Shown: positions 13,829-27,269 of the stretch, in pieces | How positions within the stretch are numbered: the stretch's first letter is position 1 | Layout: every line of letters starts with the position of its first letter | Origin: Planctomycetota bacterium | GTDB taxonomy: Bacteria; Planctomycetota; Phycisphaerae; Phycisphaerales; UBA1924 | Length of the DNA: 64,000 bases | Direction of reading: 5' to 3' | Assembly (NCBI GenBank): GCA_039819165.1 | Contig: JBCBSM010000001.1 | Location: forward strand, 1,674,001 to 1,738,000 | The notes under the pieces: generated by a model | What the model was told of the DNA's origin: nothing | Database searches by the model: none | The model's input: only the letters and a program-made list of their open reading frames with translations | Position numbers and translations under genes: made by a program

Positions 13829-14605
13829 ATGTCGACAGTGCGACATATCCCAGCTTCTGAGCCGATCGTGCGATCGATCGCCGCCACGCTGCCGGGCGGC
13901 TACCGGATCGAGGAGCACGCGCACGGGTGGGCCCAGCTCGTCTACGCGATCTCGGGGGCCATGACCGTGCGGACCGCCGACGCCGCCTGGGTGGTGCCCC
14001 CGCGGCGGGCGGTGTGGATGCCGGCGGCGACGCCGCACGCGATCGAGGCGGCGACGGCGCTGTCGCTCCGCACGCTGTACCTCGCACCCTCGCTCTGCAA
14101 CACCCTGCCGACCGGCTGCCGCGTGCTTCCGGTCTCGGGTCTGCTTCGGGAGCTCGTGCTGCACGTCGTCGAAGCGGGCCACCTACGAGGCGAGCACGAC
14201 GCGGACGCCCGGCTCGCACGAGTGCTCGCCGACCGCATCGCCGTGAGTGATCCATCGCCGTTACGGCTGGCGATGCCGGCCGACGAGCGTGCGCGGCGCG
14301 TGGCGGAACGAATCCTGGCGAGTCCGGGGGCCGACGCCTCGGCCGACGAGCTGGCAGCCGGCAGCGGCGCGAGCACGCGCACCATCCAGCGGCTCTTCCG
14401 ACGCGAGGCCGGCATGACGCTCTCGAAGTGGCGCCAGCGGGCGCGGCTGCTGCACGCGGTCACGCTGCTGGCGGAGGGGCGCTCCGTCGGCCAGGTCGCC
14501 GACGCTTGCGGCTACCGCAGCGCGAGCGCCTTCGTCTCGATGTTCCGCCTGGAGATGGGCCGGACGCCCCGGAGCTACCGTGAGCACGCCGATGGAGGGG
14601 CCTAG
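13829..14605 (+). CDS. AraC-family transcriptional regulator with N-terminal cupin
   Basis: 258 residues. The N-terminal half (about 15-110) is a cupin-like sensing domain (YRIEEHAHGWAQLVYAISGAM; VPPRRAVWMPAATPHAIE). The C-terminal part (about 155-255) has the two helix-turn-helix motifs of AraC proteins: SADELAAGSGASTRTIQRLF and VGQVADACGYRSASAFVSMF, ending in GRTPRSYR. It likely responds to a small molecule and controls nearby genes; the divergent glyoxalase/NTF2-like pair is the obvious candidate target (inference). The stop shares a CTAG with the convergent frr stop. Confidence 0.93.
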   Translation: MSTVRHIPASEPIVRSIAATLPGGYRIEEHAHGWAQLVYAISGAMTVRTADAAWVVPPRRAVWMPAATPHAIEAATALSLRTLYLAPSLCNTLPTGCRVLPVSGLLRELVLHVVEAGHLRGEHDADARLARVLADRIAVSDPSPLRLAMPADERARRVAERILASPGADASADELAAGSGASTRTIQRLFRREAGMTLSKWRQRARLLHAVTLLAEGRSVGQVADACGYRSASAFVSMFRLEMGRTPRSYREHADGGA

Positions 14606-15171
14606 ACCTCCAGGACTTCCTTGCTCTTGTCGGCCACGCGCTGGTCGATCTCGGCCTCGTGCTTCTTGAGCAGCTCCTGTATCTCATCCTTGAGGATCTT
14701 CACCTCGTCCTCGGAGATGTGTCCCTCGCCGGTCTTGAGCGAGTCGGCGTGCTTGTTGGCGTCCCGCCGCGCGTTGCGGAGCACGACCTTGGCCTCCTCG
14801 CCCATCTTCTTGCATCGGGCGACCAGTTGCTGGCGCCGGTCGGCCGAGAGCGTCGGCACGCTGACGCGGACGCTCTTGTCCTCGACCACGGGAGAGAGGC
14901 CCAGGTCGGAGGTCTCGATGGCCTTGCGGATCTCGCCGATGGCACCCTGGTCGTAGGGCTTGATGAGCAGCTGCGTGGGCTCGGGCACGCTGATGGCCGC
15001 CAGCGACTTGAGCTCGGTGCTCGCGCCGTAGTAGTCCACCTTGAGGAACTCGATGAGGGCGGTGCTCGCGCGGCCGCTGCGGACGCCGCGGAGCTCCTGC
15101 TTGAGGTAGTCCACGCCCTTCTTCATGGCGTCCTCGGCCTCGAGCAGGATGGTGTCGGGGTCGGTCGACAT
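14602..15171 (-). CDS. frr: ribosome recycling factor
   Basis: 189 residues, normal for RRF (about 185). Start at 15171 with GGAGG upstream on the minus strand. Family signatures are visible: GVRSGRASTALIEFLKVDYYG near the start, PYDQGAIGEIRKAI in the middle, and RRQQLVARCKKMGEEAKVVLRN. With EF-G it splits the post-termination ribosome. It lies downstream of pyrH on the same strand, the classic pyrH-frr order. No tsf or rpsB precedes pyrH here. The stop overlaps the AraC gene's stop by CTAG. Confidence 0.97.
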   Translation of the reverse strand: MSTDPDTILLEAEDAMKKGVDYLKQELRGVRSGRASTALIEFLKVDYYGASTELKSLAAISVPEPTQLLIKPYDQGAIGEIRKAIETSDLGLSPVVEDKSVRVSVPTLSADRRQQLVARCKKMGEEAKVVLRNARRDANKHADSLKTGEGHISEDEVKILKDEIQELLKKHEAEIDQRVADKSKEVLEV

Positions 15172-15246
15172 GGCGGTGCACCTCCAACGCAGCTATAGGC
15201 GCGTCGCGCCGCGGGGCGGGGCGTCCGCCCGGGGTTCGGCCCTCGC

Positions 15247-16014
15247 TCAGCCCGCGGTCAGCCTGGTCCCGATGGCCTCGCCCCGCACGACGGCGGCGAT
15301 GTTGCCGGGCTTCTTGAAATCGAACACGACCACCGGCATGCCGTGCTCGCGGCACATCGCCAGCGCGGTCATGTCCATCACGCCCAGGCCCCGATCGAGC
15401 GCCTCGGCGAAGGTCAGCGTGTCGAAGCGCTCGGCGGCGGGGTCCTTGGCCGGGTCGGCGGAGTACACGCCGTCGACCTTCGTGCCCTTGAGCAGCAGCT
15501 CGCAACCCAGCTCCATGGCCCGGAGCGAGGCGCAGGTGTCCGTCGAGAAGTACGGGTTGCCCGTGCCGCCCGCGAGGATGACCACGCGGCCCTTCTCCAG
15601 GTGGCGGATCGCCCGGCTGCGGATGAACGGCTCGGCGACGGCTCGGATTTCGATGGCGCTCATCACGCGGCTCTCGACGCCGACGGCCAGCAGCGCCTCC
15701 CGCATCGCCAGCGCGTTGATCACCGTGCCCAGCATGCCCATGTGGTCCGCGGTCGCCCGCTGGACCAGGCCCGCCTGCGCGAGCGTGGCGCCGCGGATGA
15801 TGTTGCCCCCACCCACGACAATCGCGAGTTGCACGCCCTGCGAGGCCGCCTGGCGGACCTCCTGGCTGATGCCCACGAGGTGATCGACCGTGACGCCCGT
15901 GCCCTGGCTGCCGAAGGCCTCGCCGCTCAGCTTCAGCAGGACCCGCGAGTACCGCTGCTCGCCGGCGCGGGTGGCCGGCTGCTCGGACTCGGCTGGCTCG
16001 CTGAGGGTCGACAT
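15247..16014 (-). CDS. pyrH: UMP kinase
   Basis: 255 residues from ATG 16014. The frame stays open far upstream, but the amino-acid-kinase fold starts at RYSRVLLKLSGEAFGSQG (about residue 22), so a far longer protein is not credible. Motifs: VVGGGNIIRG, FFSTD-type loop GGTGNPYFSTDTCA, LLKGTKVDGVYSADP and VFDFKKPGNI. It phosphorylates UMP to UDP, the first committed step to UTP/CTP, and is normally hexameric and GTP-activated. The ribosome-binding site is weak (GGGAG about 13 nt upstream). frr follows after 75 nt. Confidence 0.96.
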   Translation of the reverse strand: MSTLSEPAESEQPATRAGEQRYSRVLLKLSGEAFGSQGTGVTVDHLVGISQEVRQAASQGVQLAIVVGGGNIIRGATLAQAGLVQRATADHMGMLGTVINALAMREALLAVGVESRVMSAIEIRAVAEPFIRSRAIRHLEKGRVVILAGGTGNPYFSTDTCASLRAMELGCELLLKGTKVDGVYSADPAKDPAAERFDTLTFAEALDRGLGVMDMTALAMCREHGMPVVVFDFKKPGNIAAVVRGEAIGTRLTAG

Positions 16015-16356: not shown

Positions 16357-17340
16357 ATGGACCAGACCACCCCCAATAGCACCGCCCCCCCGGACGCCCA
16401 CGCGGACCGCGACGCCGACGAACTGCGGCCCGGACTGGTTGCATGGGTGCGCCGCCACAAGGTTCCTGTGCTGGTTACCAGCGCCTCGATCTCGCTGCTC
16501 GTGCATCTGGTCTTTGGCATCATCGCGGCGCTGTGGATGATGAACCGCCCGCCCGCGCAGATCGGCTCGGCCCAGCCCGAGGTCGAGTTCGCGGTCATGA
16601 CCGACGCCGAGCTGGCCCAGATCGCGCAGGCCGACCTGGAGCTGGACGCCCCCGACGCCTCGGACTCCGCTGCCGCCCTGGAGCTGTCGGCCGAGCTGGA
16701 CCTCGGTGAACTCGAGGTCGACCTCTCGGAGCTGACCGATTCCATCGGCGACGTCACGCTGCAGCTGGGCGGCGGCGACGTCGAGGGCCTGGGCCTGGGC
16801 GTCGGCGAGAGCGTCGGGGCGGGCGCGAGCTTCTTCGGCGTCGAGGCCCGCGGCAACCGCTTCGCCTTCGTCGTCGACATCTCCGGATCCATGCGGCTGG
16901 ACGGCAAGCTCGAGGCCATGAAGGCCGAGCTCATCCGCTCGCTCTCGGCCCTCTTCACCTCGTCGAACTTCTTCGTGATCTTCTACAGCGGCGGAGCGTT
17001 CCCGCTCGGCGGCCGCGGCGTGGACTGGGTGGAGGCCACCGACAGCGGCAAGGCCTGGGCCCGCTCCAACGTCCTCCGCGTGGAGGCCAACGGGCCGACC
17101 TTCCCGCTGGGCGCCTTCGAGGAATTGCTGCGGCTCGACCCGAGGCCCGACGCCATCTACTTCATGACCGACGGCGAGTTCCAGGACCAGCAGGCCGACG
17201 GCATCCTCAACGTCTTCCGCCGCATCGAGGCACCCATCCACTGCATCACCTTCGGCAGCCGCGAGGGCGAGGCGATCATGCGCCGCATCGCGACGAGCAC
17301 CCGGGGCACCTACACGCACGTCGAGGGCCCACGCGGATGA
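16357..17340 (+). CDS. TonB-like membrane-anchored VWA protein (first gene of ExbBD operon)
   Basis: 327 residues. Layout: short cytoplasmic N-terminus, one transmembrane helix (about 38-61), an acidic periplasmic spacer rich in Leu/Glu/Asp (about 75-150), and a C-terminal VWA domain (about 165-325). The MIDAS metal site is complete: D174-x-S176-x-S178 (DISGS), T248 and D272 (MTDGEF). The helix has S46-L-L-V-H50, the S-x-x-x-H pattern of the TonB transmembrane helix, which is needed for coupling to ExbB/ExbD. The VWA domain thus stands where TonB has its receptor-binding domain. The ATG at 16357 lacks a good ribosome-binding site; further upstream codons give only Arg-rich sequence. The stop overlaps the next gene (ATGA). 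Confidence 0.85.
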   Translation: MDQTTPNSTAPPDAHADRDADELRPGLVAWVRRHKVPVLVTSASISLLVHLVFGIIAALWMMNRPPAQIGSAQPEVEFAVMTDAELAQIAQADLELDAPDASDSAAALELSAELDLGELEVDLSELTDSIGDVTLQLGGGDVEGLGLGVGESVGAGASFFGVEARGNRFAFVVDISGSMRLDGKLEAMKAELIRSLSALFTSSNFFVIFYSGGAFPLGGRGVDWVEATDSGKAWARSNVLRVEANGPTFPLGAFEELLRLDPRPDAIYFMTDGEFQDQQADGILNVFRRIEAPIHCITFGSREGEAIMRRIATSTRGTYTHVEGPRG

Positions 17341-18464
17341 TGCGGCCACTCGTGTTGTCCATTGCGCTGCTCGCCGCCCACGCGGCGTGCGCCCAGGACG
17401 CGCTCGTGCTGCGGAGCTACGAGGCCGCCCCCGCGGGCGATGCCCTGGACGCCGGCCCGCAGGGCATCCGCGTGCGGACCGAGGCCGGCGTGGTCGTCGT
17501 TGGGTGGGATCGCGTGCTCCGCGCGCCCTCGGCGCTCGGCGTCGACGAGGCGCAGCTCGCGCGGGGTCGCGCCATCTGGCGGGCCCGCACCCGCGTGGAG
17601 CGGGGCGATCGAGTGCTGGCCGAGCCCATCCTCGAGCGGCTCTTCGCCGAGCCCGCCGCACGCACGGGGCCCACGCGGCTCGTGGTTGCCGAGGGGCTGC
17701 TGCGATGCCGGCTGGCGCGGGGCGCGACGGCGGCGGCGGTCGAGCCCTGGCTCGCCTGGCTGGACGCCAGCGCCGTCCGCGAGCCCAACACCGCCTACGC
17801 CGGCCGCGACTGGTCCGCCCGCGCGGGCCTCGCGGGCGTCACCGACGACGCCACCGAGCTGTGCCCGCAGCTGCCGCCGATGTGGCTCGGCACGACCGCC
17901 GCCCCGCTCGTGCTGGGGCTCGAGCCCATCGAGGGCGAGCGGGCCAAGACCGCGGCCCTCCGCAGGCTGTATCAGGCCTCGCTCGAGCACGAACTCGGCC
18001 GATCGATCGGCGAGCTGCCCGAGGCCAACCGCGACGACGGCGTGGCGCTCGTGCGCGAGATCGTGGCGGCGCGCGCCGGCGACGACGCCGAGCGGAACGC
18101 CGCCCGCGCCAAGCTCGGCCGCCGCCTCGAGTCGGCCCGCGGCTGGCGGCGGGCCTGGGTGCTCGCGGGGCTGGGCCGATCGCTGGTGGCCGAGGACGAC
18201 CGCGAATCGAGGCTGCGGGGCGTGGCCCGGCTGCTCCGCGTCAACCTGCTGCACCGCCGGCACGCGCCGACGCTGGCCGACATCGCGCTGGCCGAGGCCG
18301 CGGTCGTGCTCGACCGGCTGGGCGAGAATGACGCCGCCCGACGACTCGCCGCCGACCTGCAGCGGCGGCACTCCGACGCCTCGGTGCTCGCCTGGCCGCC
18401 GCTGGCCGACCTGCTGGATGCCACCGCCGCCGACCCCAGACCCGCCGGAGGATCGCCGCAATGA
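17337..18464 (+). CDS. exported alpha-helical protein of unknown function (ExbBD operon)
   Basis: 375 residues, ATG in an ATGA overlap with the VWA gene. The signal peptide (LVLSIALLAAHAACAQD) is followed by a short beta-like segment (about 23-60) and then helical repeat-like sequence without a recognised domain. No catalytic motif is apparent. It is fully embedded in the operon, with the exbB start overlapping its stop, so it is likely a periplasmic partner of the VWA/ExbBD complex (inference from context only). Confidence 0.8.
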   Translation: MMRPLVLSIALLAAHAACAQDALVLRSYEAAPAGDALDAGPQGIRVRTEAGVVVVGWDRVLRAPSALGVDEAQLARGRAIWRARTRVERGDRVLAEPILERLFAEPAARTGPTRLVVAEGLLRCRLARGATAAAVEPWLAWLDASAVREPNTAYAGRDWSARAGLAGVTDDATELCPQLPPMWLGTTAAPLVLGLEPIEGERAKTAALRRLYQASLEHELGRSIGELPEANRDDGVALVREIVAARAGDDAERNAARAKLGRRLESARGWRRAWVLAGLGRSLVAEDDRESRLRGVARLLRVNLLHRRHAPTLADIALAEAAVVLDRLGENDAARRLAADLQRRHSDASVLAWPPLADLLDATAADPRPAGGSPQ

Positions 18465-19282
18465 TGAGCCGTTTCGCCGAGGCGATCGCCGCCCCATCGA
18501 CCGACTGGATCGCCCACGCCGGCGGGCTGCTGGCCCAGGCCGACGCCGCCGGTGCGTCCGCCGCCGGCGAGGACGGCAAGACGCTGCTCGAGCACATCCT
18601 CTCGGGCGGGCCCATCGGCATCGTGATCATCGTGCTGTCCTTCTCGGCGGTGCTGATGGCGGTGTGGCTGTTCGTCGAGATCCGCTACGAGCGGCTCGCG
18701 CCCGCCCGCGTCCGCGAGGGGCTCAGCCGGCTGCTGATGGCCAACGACGTCCGCGGCGCGCTCGCCTTCTGCCAGGCCGAGGAGAACCAGTGCCTGCTGG
18801 CCCGCATGTTCGCCGCGGCGCTGACGCGGTGCCTCCGCTCGCCCTTCGGCCTGCTCGAGCTGCGCTCCGCCCTCGAGGAATCGGGACAGGAGCGCTTCGC
18901 GCAGCTGCACCGCAAGACCGACCCGATGGGGCTGATCGCCGCCGTCGCGCCCATGCTCGGGCTGCTCGGTACCGTCGTTGGCCTCGTGGGCGCCTTCGAG
19001 ACGCTGAGCGTCAGCGAGGGCGTGCGGCCCGAGGCGCTCGCGTCGAGCATCTCGGTGGCGCTCATCACCACGGTGCTCGGGCTGATCGTCGCCATCCCCT
19101 GCACCGCGATGCACACCTTCTTCCGCAATCGCGTGGATTCGCTCGCGCAACGGCTCGCCGAGGTCACCGAGGAGCTGGCGGCCTGCATCCAGTCGGCCAA
19201 GCCGGGCGGCGGACAGGCCCGCCCGCAGCAGCGTCCCGCTGGCGCGCCCCAGCAGCCACAGCCGGTCGCCAGCGGCTCGTGA
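18461..19282 (+). CDS. exbB: ExbB/TolQ/MotA-family proton channel protein
   Basis: 273 residues. An N-terminal periplasmic segment precedes the first transmembrane helix (about 49-72, GPIGIVIIVLSFSAVLMAVWLF). A cytoplasmic loop (about 75-160) is followed by two more helices with the family signature: PMGLIAAVAPMLGLLGTVVG (about 160-180) and SISVALITTVLGLIVAIPC (about 195-215). The Thr residues in these helices line the proton path in known homologues. With ExbD it forms the stator-rotor motor that couples the proton gradient to a TonB-like partner. The Gln/Pro/Ala-rich tail is an extra. ATGA overlap with the previous gene. Confidence 0.93.
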   Translation: MMSRFAEAIAAPSTDWIAHAGGLLAQADAAGASAAGEDGKTLLEHILSGGPIGIVIIVLSFSAVLMAVWLFVEIRYERLAPARVREGLSRLLMANDVRGALAFCQAEENQCLLARMFAAALTRCLRSPFGLLELRSALEESGQERFAQLHRKTDPMGLIAAVAPMLGLLGTVVGLVGAFETLSVSEGVRPEALASSISVALITTVLGLIVAIPCTAMHTFFRNRVDSLAQRLAEVTEELAACIQSAKPGGGQARPQQRPAGAPQQPQPVASGS

Positions 19283-19307
19283 TCGACGAATCCCACCGGG
19301 AGACGCC

Positions 19308-19736
19308 TTGAACATCGCCCTGCCCCCATCCCGGCCCCGGCTGAAGCTGGACATGACGCCGATGATCGACGTCGTGCTGCTGGTGATCATCTTCTTCCTC
19401 TACACCGCCCGCTTCGCCGAGGTCAGCCGCACGAGCGTCGACCTGCCGGATGAGCCCGGCACCGCCGAGGCCGCCGCCGACCCCGACGCGGTGCTCGTCG
19501 ACGTGCGGGCCGACGGCCGCTTCCTGATGAACGGCCGCGTGGTGTCGCTGGAGCGGGTCATCGAGATCGTGGGCGAGCAGGCCGATCGCGCGGGCGGGCC
19601 CGAGCGCATCCGCGTGCTGCTGCGGGCCGACCGCGCCGCGCCCGCCGGCCCGGTCAACGAGATGGCACGGCGGCTGACGCGGATGGGCGTCCGACAGTGG
19701 AGCCACGCGACCATCGACATCTCGGGCCGGGGCTGA
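19308..19736 (+). CDS. exbD: ExbD/TolR-family protein 1
   Basis: 142 residues from a TTG start with GGGAG 5 nt upstream (19298-19302). The single transmembrane helix begins DMTPMIDVVLLVIIFFLYTA; D21 is the protonatable Asp that every ExbD needs. The periplasmic domain (about 45-142) has the usual beta-alpha arrangement, with DVRADGRFLMNGR and VLLRADRAAP. It is the first of two tandem, non-identical ExbD genes, which suggests a heterodimeric rotor rather than the usual ExbD homodimer (inference). Confidence 0.92.
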   Translation: MNIALPPSRPRLKLDMTPMIDVVLLVIIFFLYTARFAEVSRTSVDLPDEPGTAEAAADPDAVLVDVRADGRFLMNGRVVSLERVIEIVGEQADRAGGPERIRVLLRADRAAPAGPVNEMARRLTRMGVRQWSHATIDISGRG

Positions 19737-19757
19737 AGGAGCAACTAGGGCACGACC

Positions 19758-20168
19758 ATGCGGCTGCGCGACTGGAACAACCGAGAGGAGCAGGAGCACC
19801 TGCCGCTGACCACGCTGATCGACGTGGTCTTCCTGCTGCTCATCTACTTCATGGTCACGGCGACCATCACGCCGCCCGAGAGCCGCGTCGCCGCCGCCCT
19901 GCAGTCCGAACGGGGCTCGGGCCAGGCGCGGGACCTGCAGCCCCAGATCGTCACCGTCGACGTCCGCGACGGCGTGCTCACCTACCGCATGGGCTCGCGG
20001 ACGTTCCTGGATCGCGAGTCGCTCGGCGTCGTGCTCGCCGAACTGCCCAAGGAGGGCGGGCTGTTCGTCCGCGTGACCGACCGGGCGCCGTGGGCCGCCG
20101 TCGCGGCCGTCATGCAGGAGGCCCTCGACGCGGGCTTCACCAAGAGGACCTATGTGCCGGCCGAGTAG
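19758..20168 (+). CDS. exbD: ExbD/TolR-family protein 2
   Basis: 136 residues, ATG 19758. Transmembrane helix HLPLTTLIDVVFLLLIYFMV, with protonatable D22. The periplasmic domain has VTVDVRDGVLTYRMGSRTF and LFVRVTDRAPWAAVAAVM, as in ExbD/TolR. It differs throughout from ExbD 1, so the pair is an old duplication. Its last 17 nt overlap the next gene, which starts inside it. Confidence 0.92.
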   Translation: MRLRDWNNREEQEHLPLTTLIDVVFLLLIYFMVTATITPPESRVAAALQSERGSGQARDLQPQIVTVDVRDGVLTYRMGSRTFLDRESLGVVLAELPKEGGLFVRVTDRAPWAAVAAVMQEALDAGFTKRTYVPAE

Positions 20169-22959
20169 CACATCCTGGCTCGCGTGCATCGCGTTGGCGT
20201 GCGGCATGGCCGCGGCCGCGGCGGCGCAGCCGGCCGACGAGGCCGGCCGCTTCGAGGCCTACCTCCAGCGGCTCGAGCTCCGCTCGGTGGCCGCCGCCGA
20301 CCTGCGCCGGCGGCTCGAGGACGCGCCGGCCGAGGAACGGCCCGCCGTCGCCACGAAGCTCGGCGACCTGTACGTCGAGCTCATCGAGCAGGCATCGACC
20401 CCCGAGGAGCGCGAACGGCTCGAGGACCTGGGCCGCCGGCTCGTGCGGCAGATCCCCGAGGAGGGCAGCGGCGATCTGCGGCTCGCGCTCGTCCGCGCCC
20501 GGTACCAGTGGGCCAAGTCGACCGCCGAACGCTCCCGCCTGGGCTCGGTCGACCCCGAGCAGGTCGAGGAGGCCGACCGCACGCTGCGCGGGCTGCTCCC
20601 CGAGCTCGGCTCGGTCGCGGACACGGCGGGCGACCTGATCGACCGGCTCGATCGCCGGCGGCTCTCGGTGGGCCTCGAGCCCGAGGAGACCGAGCTGCTG
20701 CAGGACGCGCTCCGCGTGCGCTCGACGGCGCACTACCTGCTGGGCTGGGCGAAGTACTACATCGCCATGATCGCCGGCGCCGAGCGCTTTGCGTCCGATG
20801 CGCTCAAGGACCTGGGCATGCTGCTGGGCTCCGAGCCGGGCCGCCCCGCGAGCGTCGAGCGGCTGGACACCCGGCTGCTCCGCTTCGAGCACGTGGCCGA
20901 CTCGGCCATCGCCGCGGCGTTCTGCGAGTCGATCCTGGGCAACGGCGAGACGGCACTCCGCTGGATCACCAAGATCGAGGAGGCGCCGGGATTGCCGCCC
21001 AACATCCAGGCGCGGCTGTTCGCCTGCCGGATGCTCGTGCTGGGCGAGGCCGAACGCTGGCGGGACCTGGGCTACTACAGCGACCTCCGCCGCCGCGCCC
21101 GCCGCGCCGACGGCCACCTGGGCCTCGAGCCGCTGGAGGCCCAGCTGCTCGCGCGGCTGTCGTGGGAGGCGCTGACCGACACCCGACTCCCGCCCCGCGA
21201 CCGCTCGGTGCTGGAGGAGGTCGCCTACGCCGCGCTCCAGGATCTGGTGCGGGCCGGCCAGGTCGACGCACTACGGTCACTCGTCGACCGCTTCGGTACC
21301 GCCAGCCTCGACGCGGAGGGCTTCATCTTCGCCTTCGTGCGGGGGCAGAACGCCTTCGAGCGGGCTACGTCGGCCTACGAGGACGCGGGATTCGCCGACG
21401 GCGAAATCACCACCGACGACGCCGTTCGCAACCTCTACTTCGATGCGCGGGACGCGCTCGACGCGGCGCTCTCGGCGGGCGACGCGGACCGCTACCCCGA
21501 CGAGCGGGCGCAGGCGATGCAGCTCGCCGCGATGGCCACGTTCCTGGGCGGGTCGCTGGCGGACGCGGCCGATCGCTTCGAGGCCGCCCACGCCGAGGCG
21601 GCAGACGCCGAGCAGTCCGAGCGCTCGCTGTGGCACGCGATCGTCGCGCTCGACCAGGCGGTGCAGTCGGGCCAGCAGAACCTGCAGCCCCGCCGCGAGC
21701 GGCTGGCGACCCTCTACCTGCAGAGCTTCCCGGGCACCGAGCGCGCCGCGCGGCTGCTGGTTGCCCGCGCCGGGGCGGCGGGCGCGGGCGACCCCCGCGC
21801 CATCCAGATCCTGCTGGACGTCAAGCCCGATTCGCCGCTGTACGAGTCCGCCCGCCGCCGCGCCGAGCGGCTGCTGTTCGCCCGCGTCCGCACGCTGCGG
21901 GGCGACGCCCGCGCCGCGGCGGCGCTGCGCTACCTCACGGTCGCCGACGAGCTGCTCGCCCTCGAGCGTCGGCGGGCGGCGACGGGCAGCGTGGAGGCGG
22001 CGGAGGAATCCGCCGGCCGCGCGCTCGCGCTCGCCCGCGCCATGCTCCAGACGATCCTGGCCTCCCCGCTGCCCGACATCGCGAGGGCCGAGGCCCTGCT
22101 GGCCGCCGTCGACGACCTGGCGCTCCGTGTCGGCAGTCCGCCGGACGCCATCGCCGCCGAGCTGGCCTACCGCCGCGTGCAGATCGCCCTGGCCAAGGGC
22201 ATGGTCGACGACGCCCGTCGGCTGGCCGACCAGCTCACCGAAGAGGACGAGCCGTTCTACGCCCTCGCTCGGCGGGCGCTGTACACCCACGCCGCCCGCG
22301 GCTTCGCCGAGGCCCCGCGGGACGCCGCGCTCGCGGCGCTCGTCGTCGAGTTCGGCCGGCCCGTGATCGCCGAGCTCGGCACGTCGCCGCAGAACCTTGC
22401 CTCGCCGCAGGTGTTCACGGTGCATGGCACGGTGGGGAGCGCGGCCTGGGTCCTGTGGCGGGCCCGCGAGGCCCAAGCCGAGGCCGCCCGCGCAACCGGT
22501 GCGCCCGACATCCCTCGCGAGGAAGAAGCCCGCGCGATGCTCGATCTGCTGCTGGCGATCGACGGGCGGCTGCTCGAGGCCGACCTGGCCGATGCCGCCG
22601 GCCTGCAGCGCGTCGCCTACGCCAGCGAGGCCGCCGGCCGCACCACGGACGCCCTCGATGCCTGGCGCCGCGTGCTCGCGGGCGTCGAGGCCGAGTCGCC
22701 CCGCTACCTGAGGGCCCGCTACGAGGCCGCGCGGCTGCTGTCGCAGGAGGACCCCGGTCGTGCGCTCGCGGCGCTGCGGCAGCACCTGGTGCTGCAGCCC
22801 GACGCCCCGCCGCCCTGGGACGAACGCATCCGCGCCTTGTTCGACGCCCTCGACAACGGCCGCCCGCTCCCGCCATCGCTGATCGATGCCGGCAACGAGC
22901 CCCCGCCGGCGCCGCTGGAGGAATCAGCACCGGCACCTCCCGCGGGAGGTGGACCGTGA
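20152..22959 (+). CDS. large exported TPR/helical-repeat protein (ExbBD operon)
   Basis: 935 residues, ATG 20152 inside the end of exbD2. Signal peptide to about residue 26 (CIALACGMAAAAAAQPAD). The remainder is all-alpha with repeated Ala/Leu/Glu helix pairs of TPR or HEAT character, for example the segment SLADAADRFEAAHAEAADAE; a proline-rich tail ends it. No enzyme motif is seen. As a periplasmic scaffold co-translated with the ExbBD motor, it could present or receive substrates for the VWA protein (inference). GTGA overlap to the next gene. Confidence 0.82.
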   Translation: MCRPSSTSWLACIALACGMAAAAAAQPADEAGRFEAYLQRLELRSVAAADLRRRLEDAPAEERPAVATKLGDLYVELIEQASTPEERERLEDLGRRLVRQIPEEGSGDLRLALVRARYQWAKSTAERSRLGSVDPEQVEEADRTLRGLLPELGSVADTAGDLIDRLDRRRLSVGLEPEETELLQDALRVRSTAHYLLGWAKYYIAMIAGAERFASDALKDLGMLLGSEPGRPASVERLDTRLLRFEHVADSAIAAAFCESILGNGETALRWITKIEEAPGLPPNIQARLFACRMLVLGEAERWRDLGYYSDLRRRARRADGHLGLEPLEAQLLARLSWEALTDTRLPPRDRSVLEEVAYAALQDLVRAGQVDALRSLVDRFGTASLDAEGFIFAFVRGQNAFERATSAYEDAGFADGEITTDDAVRNLYFDARDALDAALSAGDADRYPDERAQAMQLAAMATFLGGSLADAADRFEAAHAEAADAEQSERSLWHAIVALDQAVQSGQQNLQPRRERLATLYLQSFPGTERAARLLVARAGAAGAGDPRAIQILLDVKPDSPLYESARRRAERLLFARVRTLRGDARAAAALRYLTVADELLALERRRAATGSVEAAEESAGRALALARAMLQTILASPLPDIARAEALLAAVDDLALRVGSPPDAIAAELAYRRVQIALAKGMVDDARRLADQLTEEDEPFYALARRALYTHAARGFAEAPRDAALAALVVEFGRPVIAELGTSPQNLASPQVFTVHGTVGSAAWVLWRAREAQAEAARATGAPDIPREEEARAMLDLLLAIDGRLLEADLADAAGLQRVAYASEAAGRTTDALDAWRRVLAGVEAESPRYLRARYEAARLLSQEDPGRALAALRQHLVLQPDAPPPWDERIRALFDALDNGRPLPPSLIDAGNEPPPAPLEESAPAPPAGGGP

Positions 22960-25757
22960 CCGGCCCGCGCGACGGCGGATCCGCCGTGTCCCCCAGGGAC
23001 GCCGCGCTTGGGGCGATCCTCGGTACGCCACCCGGCGCCGACGCCGCCGCGCTGCTCGGCGTGGACGCGAACGATCCAGCCGACGGCGAGATCGTCGCCG
23101 CGCTCAACCGCCGGCTGTCCCAGGTCAACGCCCACGCGCGGGGCGGCACGCCATTGGGCGACGAGGTGCGGCTCGCGCTGCACGCCGCCGCCGCCCAGCT
23201 GCTGAGCGCTCGGCCCGCGTCGTCGGCGTCGGCGGCCCGCGCCACGCCCGCGGGCAACCTGCCGCCCGCCCACGTCGCCCTCGAGCAGACCGCCATCGTC
23301 GCCCTGGGCATGCACGGCGGGTGGAACCGCCGGACCATGCGGCACCTGGCCAAGCTCACGCACGCCCGCGGGCTGCGGACCGACGACCTGGCCGTCGCGC
23401 TCGCGCGGCTCGCGCGACGCTCCAACCCCGCGGCGACGCCGTCCCACAACGGACAGGCCACCGACGCCGAGGATCACGAGGCCAGCGAGTCGATCGCGCA
23501 GCGGGCCCTGTTCGACGCGGACATGGCCGGCGCCCGATCCAGCGACGCCGCCCTCTTCGCCGCCATGGCGGTCGCGGTGCTGCTGACGCTCGTCGCGGGG
23601 GCCGCGGTGCTCATCGCCATCCCCGTCATGCGGAACGCCGCCACGCACGCGCCCGCCGATCCGCCACCCGAGGTGGTCGCCACGGGACCGAGCGACGAGC
23701 AGATCGACGCCGCCCAGGAGGCGCTCTCCCGGCTCGACGAGGAGATGGTGCTGCCCCCGCCCCGGCCGATCCCCAGCGTCCGGCTGGACACGGTGGTCAC
23801 CGATCTCCGGCTGGCCGCCGCGCGACGCCGGGCGGGCGACGCCTCGGCCCAGGCCGTGTTCGAGCGATCGATCGATGCGCTCGCCCGCGGCTGGCACGAG
23901 CTGCCGGCCGACCAGCGGTCCGCCGCGCTCTCGGAGGTCATCGACCACGTCTACCTCGTCGCCGACGACCAGGCCAGCCTCGACGCGGTGCTCGGCTTCC
24001 TGGCCAGCCCGTTCTACGACGACGTCGACCAGGCCGCGGCTTCGACGCTGCCGCCCCGCATCTGGCAGTGGAGCCTGCTTGCCCGCCTGACCCGCGAGGA
24101 GGACCTGCCGGCGGCGGGCATGGCCCGCGTCCGCCGCGCCCTGGGCGACCTGCCGGCCGACCTGCGCACCACCCGCAGCTTCGACGAGGCCGCCGCCAGC
24201 GGGCTGACGGCGCTGCTGGCGTCCGAGGCAGTGCTCATCCCCGCCGATGCATCGGCGGCCATCGACCTCGACGCGTGGGACGCCTGGATCGCGTGCGCCC
24301 GGGGCGTGGGCCGCGGCGACGGACGGCTGGGCCAGCGGCTGCTGCTCGCCGGCCTGGAGCGCGTGCTCCACGCCGCCCCCGAGCCCACCGAGAGCGAGGC
24401 GTCCTTCCGCCTCGTGCGGCGGCTGGTGGTGGCGCTCTCGTGGCGACCCGGCGACGAGGCCCGCGATCGCCTGCTCGTGTGGTTCGACGACACCCAGGTC
24501 TCCATCGCCGACCTGCACGCCATCACCAACGCGCTCGCGACCGCATCGGCCGCACCCGGCGTCGACCCGACCATGGTGCTACCCGTGCTGGCCTCGCCCA
24601 CGCTGCGGTCCCAGGTGCGGGATCGCTTCGCCGGCGCGTGGGGCGTGCGGTCGTCGCTGGCGCACGACGCGGTGGCGACCAACTGGCTGGCCGCCGCCGA
24701 CGCGCTGCTCGCCACGCCCGTCGCCACCACCGCCGCCGCCAACGCGGTAGATACGGCCATCGCGGCGCGGCTGAGCGCGTCGGCGGCGCTGCTGTGGCAG
24801 GGCCGCACCGACGAGGCCGACGCCGTCCTGCTCACCCTGCGCGACGGGCTCACCGCCGACGCCGCCTCGGCCAACGCGGGCGTCCGCACCATCTGGATGG
24901 CCGCGCACGGCCAGCCGAGCGACTGGGCGCTCCGCTTCCTCGAGCAGCGCTACCCCGAGCTGCAGGTCGAGCTCATCGACGAACTCGCGAGCGGCGGGCC
25001 CCGGCACGCCGTCGAGGCCGAGCTGCTGGTCGACGCCTACCTCCGCGGCCGCGTTGCGTCGGTGCGGACGCGCGCGGGCGACGTGCTGCTGGCCAACGCC
25101 GGCTCGCCGCTGGTCATCGCCGCCGCCCTCGAGGTCCTGCCCATGCCGGGGTCGGACTTCCGCAAGGGCGAGCTCGTCGAGCTGCTCACCGGCATCCGCC
25201 TGCCCGAGGGCGACGCCCGCCCCCTCGTCGCGCGGCGGGCGCTGGTCGAGCGCCTCCTGCAACTGCTGGCCAACGAGGGCGAACTGGCGACCATCGATCG
25301 CGCCGCCGCCGCCATCGGCAACGCCTATGCGCTCGCGCTGGGCGCCGCCACTCCCGGCGTCAACCCCGCCACGTCGACGGGCGACACGCCGCCCGAGCTC
25401 GCCGCCGAGCTGCTGTGGACCCAGCTCCGCAGCCGCGCCGATCGCGTGATCCCGCCGCAGGACTGGCCCTGGCGGCCCGGCGACATCGACCGCCGGCTCA
25501 ACGGGCGGACACGCCTGGCCACCGGCCGGATCCAGCGGTTTGCGGCCTTCCAGGCGAGCCTCACCGAGATCTGGCTCTACGTCGCCGCCGGCGAGCGGCC
25601 CGAGCTCGCCGCAACCCTGGCCGAGCAGCGGCAGGCCATGCGCGACGCGCGGCGCGACGCCGGCGGCATCCTCGAGCAGCTGGCCATCGTCGAGCGGGCG
25701 CGTCTCGCGGCCTGGCGGGAGCGCGTCGCCAACGCCGGACTCGGAGGCCCCCAATGA
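22956..25757 (+). CDS. single-span membrane protein with large periplasmic helical domain (ExbBD operon)
   Basis: 933 residues. GTG 22956 overlaps the upstream stop and has GGAGGTGG (22945-22952) just before it; the frame is open far upstream, but that part is the shadow of the previous gene. A cytoplasmic N-terminal domain (about 1-195) contains repeated LLGVDANDPADGEIVAALNR-like helices. One transmembrane helix lies at about 199-222. The periplasmic part of about 700 residues is helical-repeat-like, with no recognised catalytic motif. The topology suits a protein that links cytoplasmic and periplasmic parts of the operon's complex (inference). Confidence 0.82.
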   Translation: MTGPRDGGSAVSPRDAALGAILGTPPGADAAALLGVDANDPADGEIVAALNRRLSQVNAHARGGTPLGDEVRLALHAAAAQLLSARPASSASAARATPAGNLPPAHVALEQTAIVALGMHGGWNRRTMRHLAKLTHARGLRTDDLAVALARLARRSNPAATPSHNGQATDAEDHEASESIAQRALFDADMAGARSSDAALFAAMAVAVLLTLVAGAAVLIAIPVMRNAATHAPADPPPEVVATGPSDEQIDAAQEALSRLDEEMVLPPPRPIPSVRLDTVVTDLRLAAARRRAGDASAQAVFERSIDALARGWHELPADQRSAALSEVIDHVYLVADDQASLDAVLGFLASPFYDDVDQAAASTLPPRIWQWSLLARLTREEDLPAAGMARVRRALGDLPADLRTTRSFDEAAASGLTALLASEAVLIPADASAAIDLDAWDAWIACARGVGRGDGRLGQRLLLAGLERVLHAAPEPTESEASFRLVRRLVVALSWRPGDEARDRLLVWFDDTQVSIADLHAITNALATASAAPGVDPTMVLPVLASPTLRSQVRDRFAGAWGVRSSLAHDAVATNWLAAADALLATPVATTAAANAVDTAIAARLSASAALLWQGRTDEADAVLLTLRDGLTADAASANAGVRTIWMAAHGQPSDWALRFLEQRYPELQVELIDELASGGPRHAVEAELLVDAYLRGRVASVRTRAGDVLLANAGSPLVIAAALEVLPMPGSDFRKGELVELLTGIRLPEGDARPLVARRALVERLLQLLANEGELATIDRAAAAIGNAYALALGAATPGVNPATSTGDTPPELAAELLWTQLRSRADRVIPPQDWPWRPGDIDRRLNGRTRLATGRIQRFAAFQASLTEIWLYVAAGERPELAATLAEQRQAMRDARRDAGGILEQLAIVERARLAAWRERVANAGLGGPQ

Positions 25758-26803
25758 CGCGTACCCATGCCATCGCCGCGCATCTGTGCCTGCTCGCACT
25801 CGCCGCAGCGTGCATCGCCCAGGATGCGCCCGATCCGCTCGAGCAGGTGCCGCCGCCCGCCGAGGAGCCCCGGGACCAGCCGGCCGCACCACCCGAGGAA
25901 CAGCCCGCAGCCCCCGCCGCCGAGGAGCCGCTCGAGCCCCTCGGCCCGCCCGACGCGTGGTCCCGCGTGCCCGACCTCGACGCAAGATTGGCCGCCCTCG
26001 ACGGCCGGGACGCGATGGCCTACCTCGAGCTGGCCGAGGAGGTCGCCGACGAGACCGGCAGCGCCGAGGACCGGCTGCTGTCGCGGCAGCTCTACGCCAT
26101 CGCGTACGCCGTCGAGCGGGAGACCGGCAGGCGGCCCGAGGTCATCGCCGGCGCGTGCCTCGGGCTCGCCCAGATCGAGCCGACCGACGATCGGGCGGCT
26201 TGGCTCCGCGCCGTCGCCGGCCTCATCGACGCCCGCGCGACCCAGGCCCCCGGCGCGACCGTCGGCGCCGCCGCCGTCCCCCCGGAGGTCGGCCTGCGGG
26301 CCGCCGAGGCGCTCGGGCTGGCCCGCGCCGGCCAGGGCCGCCGCGCCCAACGCCTCTACGACGACGAGGACGTCCGCCTGGTCTTCGATCGCTACGGCGA
26401 CCTGCTCGGCGGCTCGGGCGGGCTCAGCGGGCTCCGCCGATTCGAGCGCGCCCTCGGCGACTGGCCCGACGCCGAGTGCGGCGGCGCCCGCGTCGTCACC
26501 CGCCGCGTGCAGGACGGCCGCGAGACCCGTCACTGCCCGATCTGCCACGGCAACCCGGGCCCGCCGCTCAGCGAGGGCGAGTTCCTCGCCCACCTCCGCT
26601 TCGAGAGCCGGCTGCTCCGCGGCATCCACCAGAGCTGGGGCGCCCAGGTCGTCGTCGATCGCGGCGCGCCGCTCATCGACCCGGACCCCGACGAGGTGCT
26701 CGGCCAGCTGCTCGCCCGCTACGGCATCGATGCCGGCCGCCGGCTGTGGCGGAACGGTGCGTGGGCCCGATCGGACTCTTCCGCTCCAACGCCGGGCCCG
26801 TAG
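25754..26803 (+). CDS. exported protein with C-terminal Cys cluster (last gene of ExbBD operon)
   Basis: 349 residues, ATGA overlap with the previous gene. The N-terminal export signal ends near LALAAACIAQD (signal peptidase I site, or a non-ideal lipobox at C20). A Pro/Glu/Ala-rich linker (about 25-68) precedes a helical domain (about 70-235). Near the C-terminus, C242-G-G and C261-P-I-C264-H265-G-N-P-G form a cluster. CxxCH formally fits a c-type haem site, but the surrounding CGG...CPxCxG spacing looks more like a DnaJ-type zinc knuckle. Function unknown. Confidence 0.8.
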   Translation: MTRTHAIAAHLCLLALAAACIAQDAPDPLEQVPPPAEEPRDQPAAPPEEQPAAPAAEEPLEPLGPPDAWSRVPDLDARLAALDGRDAMAYLELAEEVADETGSAEDRLLSRQLYAIAYAVERETGRRPEVIAGACLGLAQIEPTDDRAAWLRAVAGLIDARATQAPGATVGAAAVPPEVGLRAAEALGLARAGQGRRAQRLYDDEDVRLVFDRYGDLLGGSGGLSGLRRFERALGDWPDAECGGARVVTRRVQDGRETRHCPICHGNPGPPLSEGEFLAHLRFESRLLRGIHQSWGAQVVVDRGAPLIDPDPDEVLGQLLARYGIDAGRRLWRNGAWARSDSSAPTPGP

Positions 26804-26852
26804 ACTCCCCGCCGCGGACCTCAATCGGCGTCCGCACAAGGAGAGCCACGCG

Positions 26853-27269
26853 ATGTCCGACGCCGCGACGACCGAGAAGAAGTCGAACGATGAGCATGCC
26901 GCCGAGGCCGAATCGCCCTTCAAGCCCGAGATCGTCTTCGAGGACTTCGCCCGCGTGGACCTCCGCGTCGCGAAGATCCTCGAGGCGGGCGACCATCCCA
27001 AGGCCGACCGGCTGCTCAAGCTGACGCTCGACGACGGCAGCGGGACGCCCCGGCAGATCTGCGCGGGCATCAAGGGCCACTACACGCCGGACGAACTCGT
27101 CGGCCGCTTGATCGTGATCGTCGCCAACCTCGCGCCCCGCCAGCTCCGCGGCGAGGAGAGCCGCGGCATGCTGCTGGCCGCCAGCGACGCCGACAAGGGC
27201 AGCGAGGAGCGCGTCGTCGCGCTGCTCTCGCCGCTGGCCGACATGCCCCCCGGCTCGATCGTGTCCTAG
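26853..27269 (+). CDS. tRNA-binding OB-fold protein (MetG C-terminal / EMAPII-like)
   Basis: 138 residues, ATG 26853 with AAGGAG (26838-26843) upstream; a TAGACT box (26802-26807) may be its -10. An acidic/Lys N-terminal tail precedes the OB fold: IVFEDFARVDLRVAKILEAG, HPKADRLLKLTLDDG, QICAGIKGHYTPDELVGR and ANLAPRQLRGEESRGMLLAA. This is the domain found at the C-terminus of methionyl-tRNA synthetase, in EMAPII/Arc1p and in free-standing CsaA-like proteins. It binds tRNA in trans. Here it stands alone and might supply the tRNA-binding domain to a short MetG encoded elsewhere (inference). Confidence 0.9.
   Translation: MSDAATTEKKSNDEHAAEAESPFKPEIVFEDFARVDLRVAKILEAGDHPKADRLLKLTLDDGSGTPRQICAGIKGHYTPDELVGRLIVIVANLAPRQLRGEESRGMLLAASDADKGSEERVVALLSPLADMPPGSIVS

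Follow-up and report, generated by a model that had tools for sequence, protein, structure and literature searches.

The 64,000-nucleotide stretch of planctomycete DNA analysed here (the window; Planctomycetota bacterium, GenBank assembly GCA_039819165.1, contig JBCBSM010000001.1) contains an operon of eight genes, vwa-g2-exbB-exbD1-exbD2-g6-g7-g8, that probably encodes a proton-driven force machine of the periplasm. We suggest that (i) an ExbB/ExbD motor drives the machine, (ii) a membrane-anchored protein with a von Willebrand factor A (VWA) domain docks on this motor, (iii) the metal ion-dependent adhesion site (MIDAS) of the VWA domain acts as a grip, and (iv) other products of the operon are the partners that are gripped. 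The operon is a new and unusually complete member of a published kind. Williams-Jones et al. 2025 (PMC12204202, a source available in part, as holds for all references to it below) describe inner-membrane vWA force transducers, found also in Planctomycetes, that carry an SHLS motif and are encoded beside TolQ, two TolR and a tetratricopeptide repeat (TPR) gene; coupling of vWA protein and motor is proposed there and no function is assigned to the family. Because that coupling had already been proposed, the novelty of the operon is lower than was estimated in an earlier reading of the window made without database searches (the sequence-only reading). Relative to the available part of PMC12204202, our analyses add further co-conserved genes, the invariance of the MIDAS, the decay of a D-box after motor loss and fusions of g7 with g8, together with the finding that TonB, plug-domain receptors and TolB are not recognisable in the window genome.

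The VWA protein consists of a single membrane helix, an acidic linker and a C-terminal VWA domain, and S46 and H50 of the helix as well as the MIDAS residues D174, S176, S178, T248 and D272 are all present, exactly as the sequence-only reading had described this TonB topology. Pfam searches identified VWA_3 in this protein (8e-7) but neither TonB_C nor the TolA C-terminal domain, in agreement with the claim that a VWA domain replaces the C-terminal domain of TonB; the domain has relatives in the PDB with E values down to 8.9e-14. To compare homologues, proteins sharing an identical 80-residue stretch were dropped, which reduced the set from 165 to 147 and left close relatives in it. Across these 147 aligned proteins the column of H50 is histidine in 146 and that of S46 is serine in 142 (threonine in 2, alanine in 3); D174, S176 and S178 are kept in all, D272 is kept in 146, and T248 is represented by T in 138, S in 7, A in 1 and P in 1. 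A separate helix scan, the script of which misread locus L059, located [ST]xxxH within a hydrophobic stretch in 144/147 proteins. A loss of the motif from close homologues had been listed as a refutation of the sequence-only reading, and these counts show it to be retained. In an alignment of 49 VWA proteins with a mean column identity of 31%, the invariant columns are H50, D174, S176, S178, D272 and two glycines, and S46 and T248 are conserved to at least 90%. Given that these columns are the most conserved ones in the alignments, the strongest constraints on the VWA protein appear to act on the putative motor-docking residue and the putative metal site.

The linker contains, close to the helix, a stretch resembling the D-box of TonB. 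If the D-box of E. coli TonB is counted from His20, which we take to be the helix histidine, its distance is 25 residues, compared with 26 in the window. ExbD captures this D-box, which in E. coli directly follows the helix (PMC10907165, likewise available in part, the source of the peptide used for this count and of the search pattern). The pattern is present in 68 of 116 operon VWA proteins at a start of +23 to +30 from the histidine, and 2.6 would be expected from shuffled linkers. Similarly, a D-box profile scores 94 of the 102 motor-bearing operons above 95% of shuffles, the profile having been trained on the same 102. The family consensus reads VEFAVMTEAEL and the window VEFAVMTDAEL.

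All eight genes have uninterrupted reading frames. The sequence-only reading described them as tightly packed and mostly overlapping, and this holds: four of the seven junctions are ATGA or GTGA overlaps, at a further one the genes share 17 bases, and at the remaining two they stand 25 and 21 bases apart. Besides VWA_3, the Pfam families above cut-off are MotA_ExbB in exbB (1e-27) and ExbD in exbD1 and exbD2 (3e-19 and 3e-13); g2, g6, g7 and g8 have none, and NCBIfam gave only matches below cut-off for the eight genes. VWA operons of the Bat/MoxR type have a MoxR-type ATPase within the operon; none of the eight genes here matched an ATPase family in the Pfam search.

The gene set is conserved far beyond the window. 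Loci were picked by their VWA gene and not by its neighbours (60 centred on the best VWA match, with a single locus for most genera, 80 named ones and 20 hand-picked full-length ones from the wider phylum), and the picking favoured close matches to the window VWA protein. The exact order vwa-g2-exbB-exbD-exbD-g6-g7-g8 is present in 80 of 143 non-redundant VWA loci and, with split open frames, in 3 further ones. In 14 loci exbB and exbD are missing from the cluster; 12 of these have the order vwa-g2-g6-g7-g8, L173 is cut by a contig end and L192 has no g2 match. The remaining loci are cut by contig ends or contain VWA genes of other types. Because loci picked by the VWA gene alone show the exact order this often, the eight-gene arrangement is more than chance. 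Co-occurrence beyond the species had been named beforehand as a test of the sequence-only reading, and the full order is found also in another planctomycete family, f73 (L197, L198). The VWA gene is present in 46/46 sampled genomes of the window's family (2.1e-36 or better) and matched at E 0.001 in 139/151 sampled genomes of the order, where weak matches outside the family may be other VWA proteins. Outside the order, exbB/exbD lie nearby on the same strand in 12 of the 20 phylum loci and not in the other 8. A phylum-wide VWA count (332/392 genomes) was not used as evidence; many of its matches span the VWA domain only. The window genome itself (3.14 Mb, G000) has one copy of the VWA gene in a search with a single protein, and the named close relatives are metagenome assemblies of Phycisphaerae and Phycisphaeraceae.

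Several loci deviate from this pattern. VWA proteins with an S-x-x-x-H helix and no exbB/exbD nearby occur in other planctomycete families (L203-L208, L212), and the clusters L069 and L213 each have two VWA genes and three ExbD genes. The operon is also present in records titled Cyanobacteria bacterium and Leptolyngbya (L132, L195); these names are probably wrong, and L195 is placed among planctomycetes in the g6 tree.

The four remaining proteins may provide the partners. The fold of g2, predicted with high confidence (predicted local distance difference test, pLDDT, 91.2), has TPR-like helices following a small beta part; Foldseek against the PDB gave no match for this model at E 0.001 or better, and VIA-align returned TPR proteins at Z 10-13, a range common for helical repeats. 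In PDB profile searches g6 matched designed TPR proteins (best 1.7e-14), and nothing useful was found for g2 and g8. In g7, hydropathy places a membrane helix near residue 204, and the large, all-helical C-terminal part is taken to be periplasmic; its model (pLDDT 81.2, predicted template modelling score 0.45) had no Foldseek match in the PDB at E 0.001 or better, and two DnaJ rows for the N-terminal domain in the PDB profile search (E 0.39 and 0.75) are not significant and serve as a hint only. Homologues of g8 have CxxC...CxxC in 86/112 cases and none in 16/112; the window copy is missing the first of the four cluster cysteines. In L060, L063 and L083 (families f2, f2 and f1) g7 and g8 are fused into a single open frame that lacks a signal peptide where the two meet, which places g8 on the same side as the C-terminus of g7. 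A lipobox is nearly absent from g2 (0/134), g6 (2/129) and g8 (2/112).

Like the vWA force transducers of PMC12204202, the window VWA protein has an N-terminal SHLS-type histidine helix, a disordered linker with a motor box and a C-terminal vWA domain, and its gene is syntenic with a TolQ-like gene, two different TolR-like genes and a TPR gene; unlike in these, vwa is the first gene and not a downstream one, and the conserved set is larger by g2, g7 and g8. In the main text of PMC12204202 the words "MIDAS" and "metal" have no occurrence, and the available part mentions neither MIDAS conservation nor D-box decay after motor loss. The same paper describes a second family of TolR-like vWA proteins that share a membrane-anchored vWA domain encoded beside a TolQ gene; these are without an ExbD/TolR partner and without SHLS and have an Asp in the helix, whereas in the window both are present and the helix is without Asp. 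Beyond PMC12204202, no account of such operons was found in the literature searched, the coverage of which left most subscription journals and preprints outside.

With TonB-ExbB-ExbD the operon shares the S-x-x-x-H helix, the ExbB/ExbD motor and the D-box spacing, but it differs in having no TonB C-terminal domain and two ExbD genes, and no TonB-dependent receptor was found in the window genome. Profile searches of G000 detected none of the domains TonB_C, Plug, TonB_2 and TolB_N. The sequence-only reading had noted that the cluster encodes no outer-membrane receptor, and this extends to the whole window genome in the plug-domain search. Among 25 genomes chosen for domain tests, TonB_C was found in 5, Plug in 8 and TonB_2, weakly, in 5; TolB_N was found in 0/25 with the control genomes positive, and TolA was not searched for.

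The VWA protein is not the sole TonB-like candidate of its genome, because a second S-x-x-x-H protein adjoins another exbB/exbD pair, and the notion that it is the only one was dropped. This protein of ~1040 aa (L102:3739-6858, minus strand; contig C2 of G000, ~63.7-66.9 kb) has a PD40 propeller (3.9e-12), a membrane helix with S-L-L-I-H, a long Ala-rich linker and a CarboxypepD_reg domain (7.2e-8), and homologues with S-x-x-x-H stand beside exbB/exbD in 5/5 further genomes fetched for them (L244-L248). A single literature search listed no account of a protein combining PD40, S-x-x-x-H and CarboxypepD_reg, which is a candidate for a second, different TonB-like transducer.

As a sub-case of the force machine, the operon could replace Tol-Pal, holding or moving the outer membrane in division, a role that we consider rather doubtful. 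The operon resembles Tol-Pal in combining a TolQ/TolR-like motor with a TPR protein and differs from it in having no Pal, and no TolA C-terminal domain was detected in the VWA protein. TPR proteins (CpoB/YbgF) are partners of Tol-Pal; g2 superposes on the TPR domain of YbgF (Z 12.2, root-mean-square deviation 2.8 over 123 residues). The lack of TolB in the 25 genomes and the presence of the VWA gene in every sampled genome of the family agree with such a replacement. However, a Z score of about 12 for helical repeats may reflect only a common arrangement, and the top row of the same comparison is an unrelated regulator with a higher score, 13.3. Moreover, OmpA-family domains are present in 25/25 genomes (partly as MotB beside MotA) but none lies inside the operon.

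The coupling of motor and VWA protein can be followed in clusters without a motor. In ExbB trees the operon motor (type A) stands apart from an orphan exbB-exbD-exbD triplet (type B) and smaller groups; gene calls around the other exbB/exbD loci are crude. For the 14 motorless clusters, a type-A ExbB is encoded elsewhere in 6 genomes (E 1.5e-37 or better), and simple motor loss is rejected for these 6; in the genomes of the other 8 a type-A ExbB was not found, with matches reaching 2.4e-24 at best, and four of these (G022, G032, G092, G101) have a completeness of 95-98%. S-x-x-x-H and the MIDAS are kept in 14/14. With a D-box profile trained on motor-bearing operons, with ten-fold hold-out, the median score is 27.0 in the 102 operons with a motor, 30.0 in the 6 with the motor elsewhere and 8.2 in the 8 without a type-A motor (one-sided rank test for the drop, p = 0.005; 0.0006 excluding L173). 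Six of these 8 score below 11, the exceptions being L037 (20.5) and L173 (33.4), and the score of the VWA domain does not drop (p = 0.94). Thus, the D-box appears to be conserved together with the type-A motor and is mostly decayed where this motor was not found.

A number of observations weigh against this correlation or against the proposed coupling. Without the split, the comparison of motor-bearing and motorless operons gives p = 0.11, and both the split by a motor elsewhere and the cut at 11 were chosen after seeing the data. Low scores also occur in 14 of the 102 motor-bearing operons (families f2, f4, f5, f7, f9 and f73; none known from f1), one of which, L059, is the misread helix. The D-box of L173 is perfect and that of L031 is weak (10.4) in spite of a type-A motor elsewhere in its genome. 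Also, the losses are not independent events; in the g6 tree, from which L173 is absent, they fall into at least two clades, and one of these, G022 with G032, is nested among motor-bearing operons. Finally, S-x-x-x-H is kept in 8/8 operons whose genomes are without a type-A motor, and therefore the VWA protein would need another motor there. G022 and G032 have a second type-B motor (L091, L093) beside zwf-like and lolC/ftsX-like genes, named by reading. As for type-B triplets in general (L101, L104, L096-L098, L100, L105, L106, L109, L110), no transducer gene was found nearby, and at the loci that were read, L101 and L104 among them, the triplet stands behind genes read as thiL and tsaE.

The retention of the helix motif in these eight operons would be accounted for if the VWA protein were an assembly factor or tether beside a motor that works elsewhere, the histidine docking without force transfer. 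The histidine is likewise kept in 13/14 VWA proteins with no motor gene nearby, and an argument in PMC10907165 holds that docking of the TonB helix may be separable from force. Nevertheless, we regard a tether as unlikely, given that the D-box, presumably the segment that takes the force, is conserved with the type-A motor and mostly decays where this motor was not found. Even less probable is a role in gliding or surface adhesion, in which the VWA domain would be the ratchet of an adhesin. The authors of PMC12204202 suggest this for relatives, and they state that an ExbBD-like motor moves the VWA adhesins of myxobacterial gliding. However, adhesin, barrel and glycan genes are all missing from the conserved set, the VWA domain is anchored in the inner membrane, and a lipobox is almost lacking in g2, g6 and g8.

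We favor coupling of motor and VWA protein because of the conservation described above, the D-box decay and the AlphaFold3 model published for relatives, which has the vWA helix docked laterally on the motor by way of its conserved His (PMC12204202). In the proposed machine, ExbB and the two ExbD subunits would form the motor, the VWA protein would attach to the flank of this motor by its S-x-x-x-H helix, and the periplasmic domain of ExbD would capture the D-box, such that cycling of the motor would pull the VWA domain or change its orientation. The MIDAS would bear the load by gripping an acidic side chain of a partner in a metal-dependent way. As the most probable partners we consider the helical-repeat products of the operon itself, namely g2, g6 and the g7-g8 unit; these could build a scaffold in the periplasm that connects the inner membrane with the wall or the outer membrane. 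The interpretation in the sequence-only reading is supported in this way; use of the proton gradient for force, binding of metal and the identity of the load are points that we infer.

A more far-reaching proposal, which we put forward tentatively, is that the window's family uses the VWA operon as its core force-transducing system instead of Ton and Tol. Its metal-gripping arm would make two separable contacts with the motor: the helix histidine would dock on any related ExbB, and the D-box would be specific for its own ExbD pair and decay when this pair disappears and a different motor steps in.

The coordinates of the genes and of the parts of the VWA protein are compiled in the table. The flanks (14602-16012, minus strand; ~26850-27269, plus strand) contain frr, pyrH and a gene for a tRNA-binding-domain protein by eye and are apparently unrelated to the operon.

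Features of the VWA operon, in positions of the window
Feature	Position	Strand	Description
vwa	16357..17340	+	327 aa; one N-terminal helix, D-box, acidic/glycine-rich linker, C-terminal VWA domain
Transmembrane helix of VWA protein with S46-x-x-x-H50	16468..16542	+	~residues 38-62, by hydropathy
D-box-like stretch V76-EFAVMTDAE-L86	16582..16614	+	first residue +26 from H50
VWA domain	16858..17322	+	~residues 168-322; VWA_3 170-320
g2	17337..18464	+	375 aa, exported; small beta part then TPR-like helical repeats
exbB	18461..19282	+	273 aa, MotA/TolQ/ExbB family, motor type A
exbD1	19308..19736	+	142 aa, TTG start
exbD2	19758..20168	+	136 aa
g6	20152..22959	+	935 aa, exported, TPR repeats
g7	22956..25757	+	933 aa, GTG start; N-terminal helical domain, one membrane helix, all-helical C-terminal part
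g8	25754..26803	+	349 aa, exported, C-terminal Cys cluster

The vWA transducers were named in 2025 without a phenotype, and the operon supplies a constant gene set that makes g2, g6 and the g7-g8 unit directly testable as partners. Genomes that have the arm but not the motor constitute a natural test of whether the helix or the D-box carries the force, the same question that is asked for TonB. In organisms in which TonB, TonB-dependent receptors and TolB are few or unrecognisable, the VWA operon may be a main energy link to the outer envelope.

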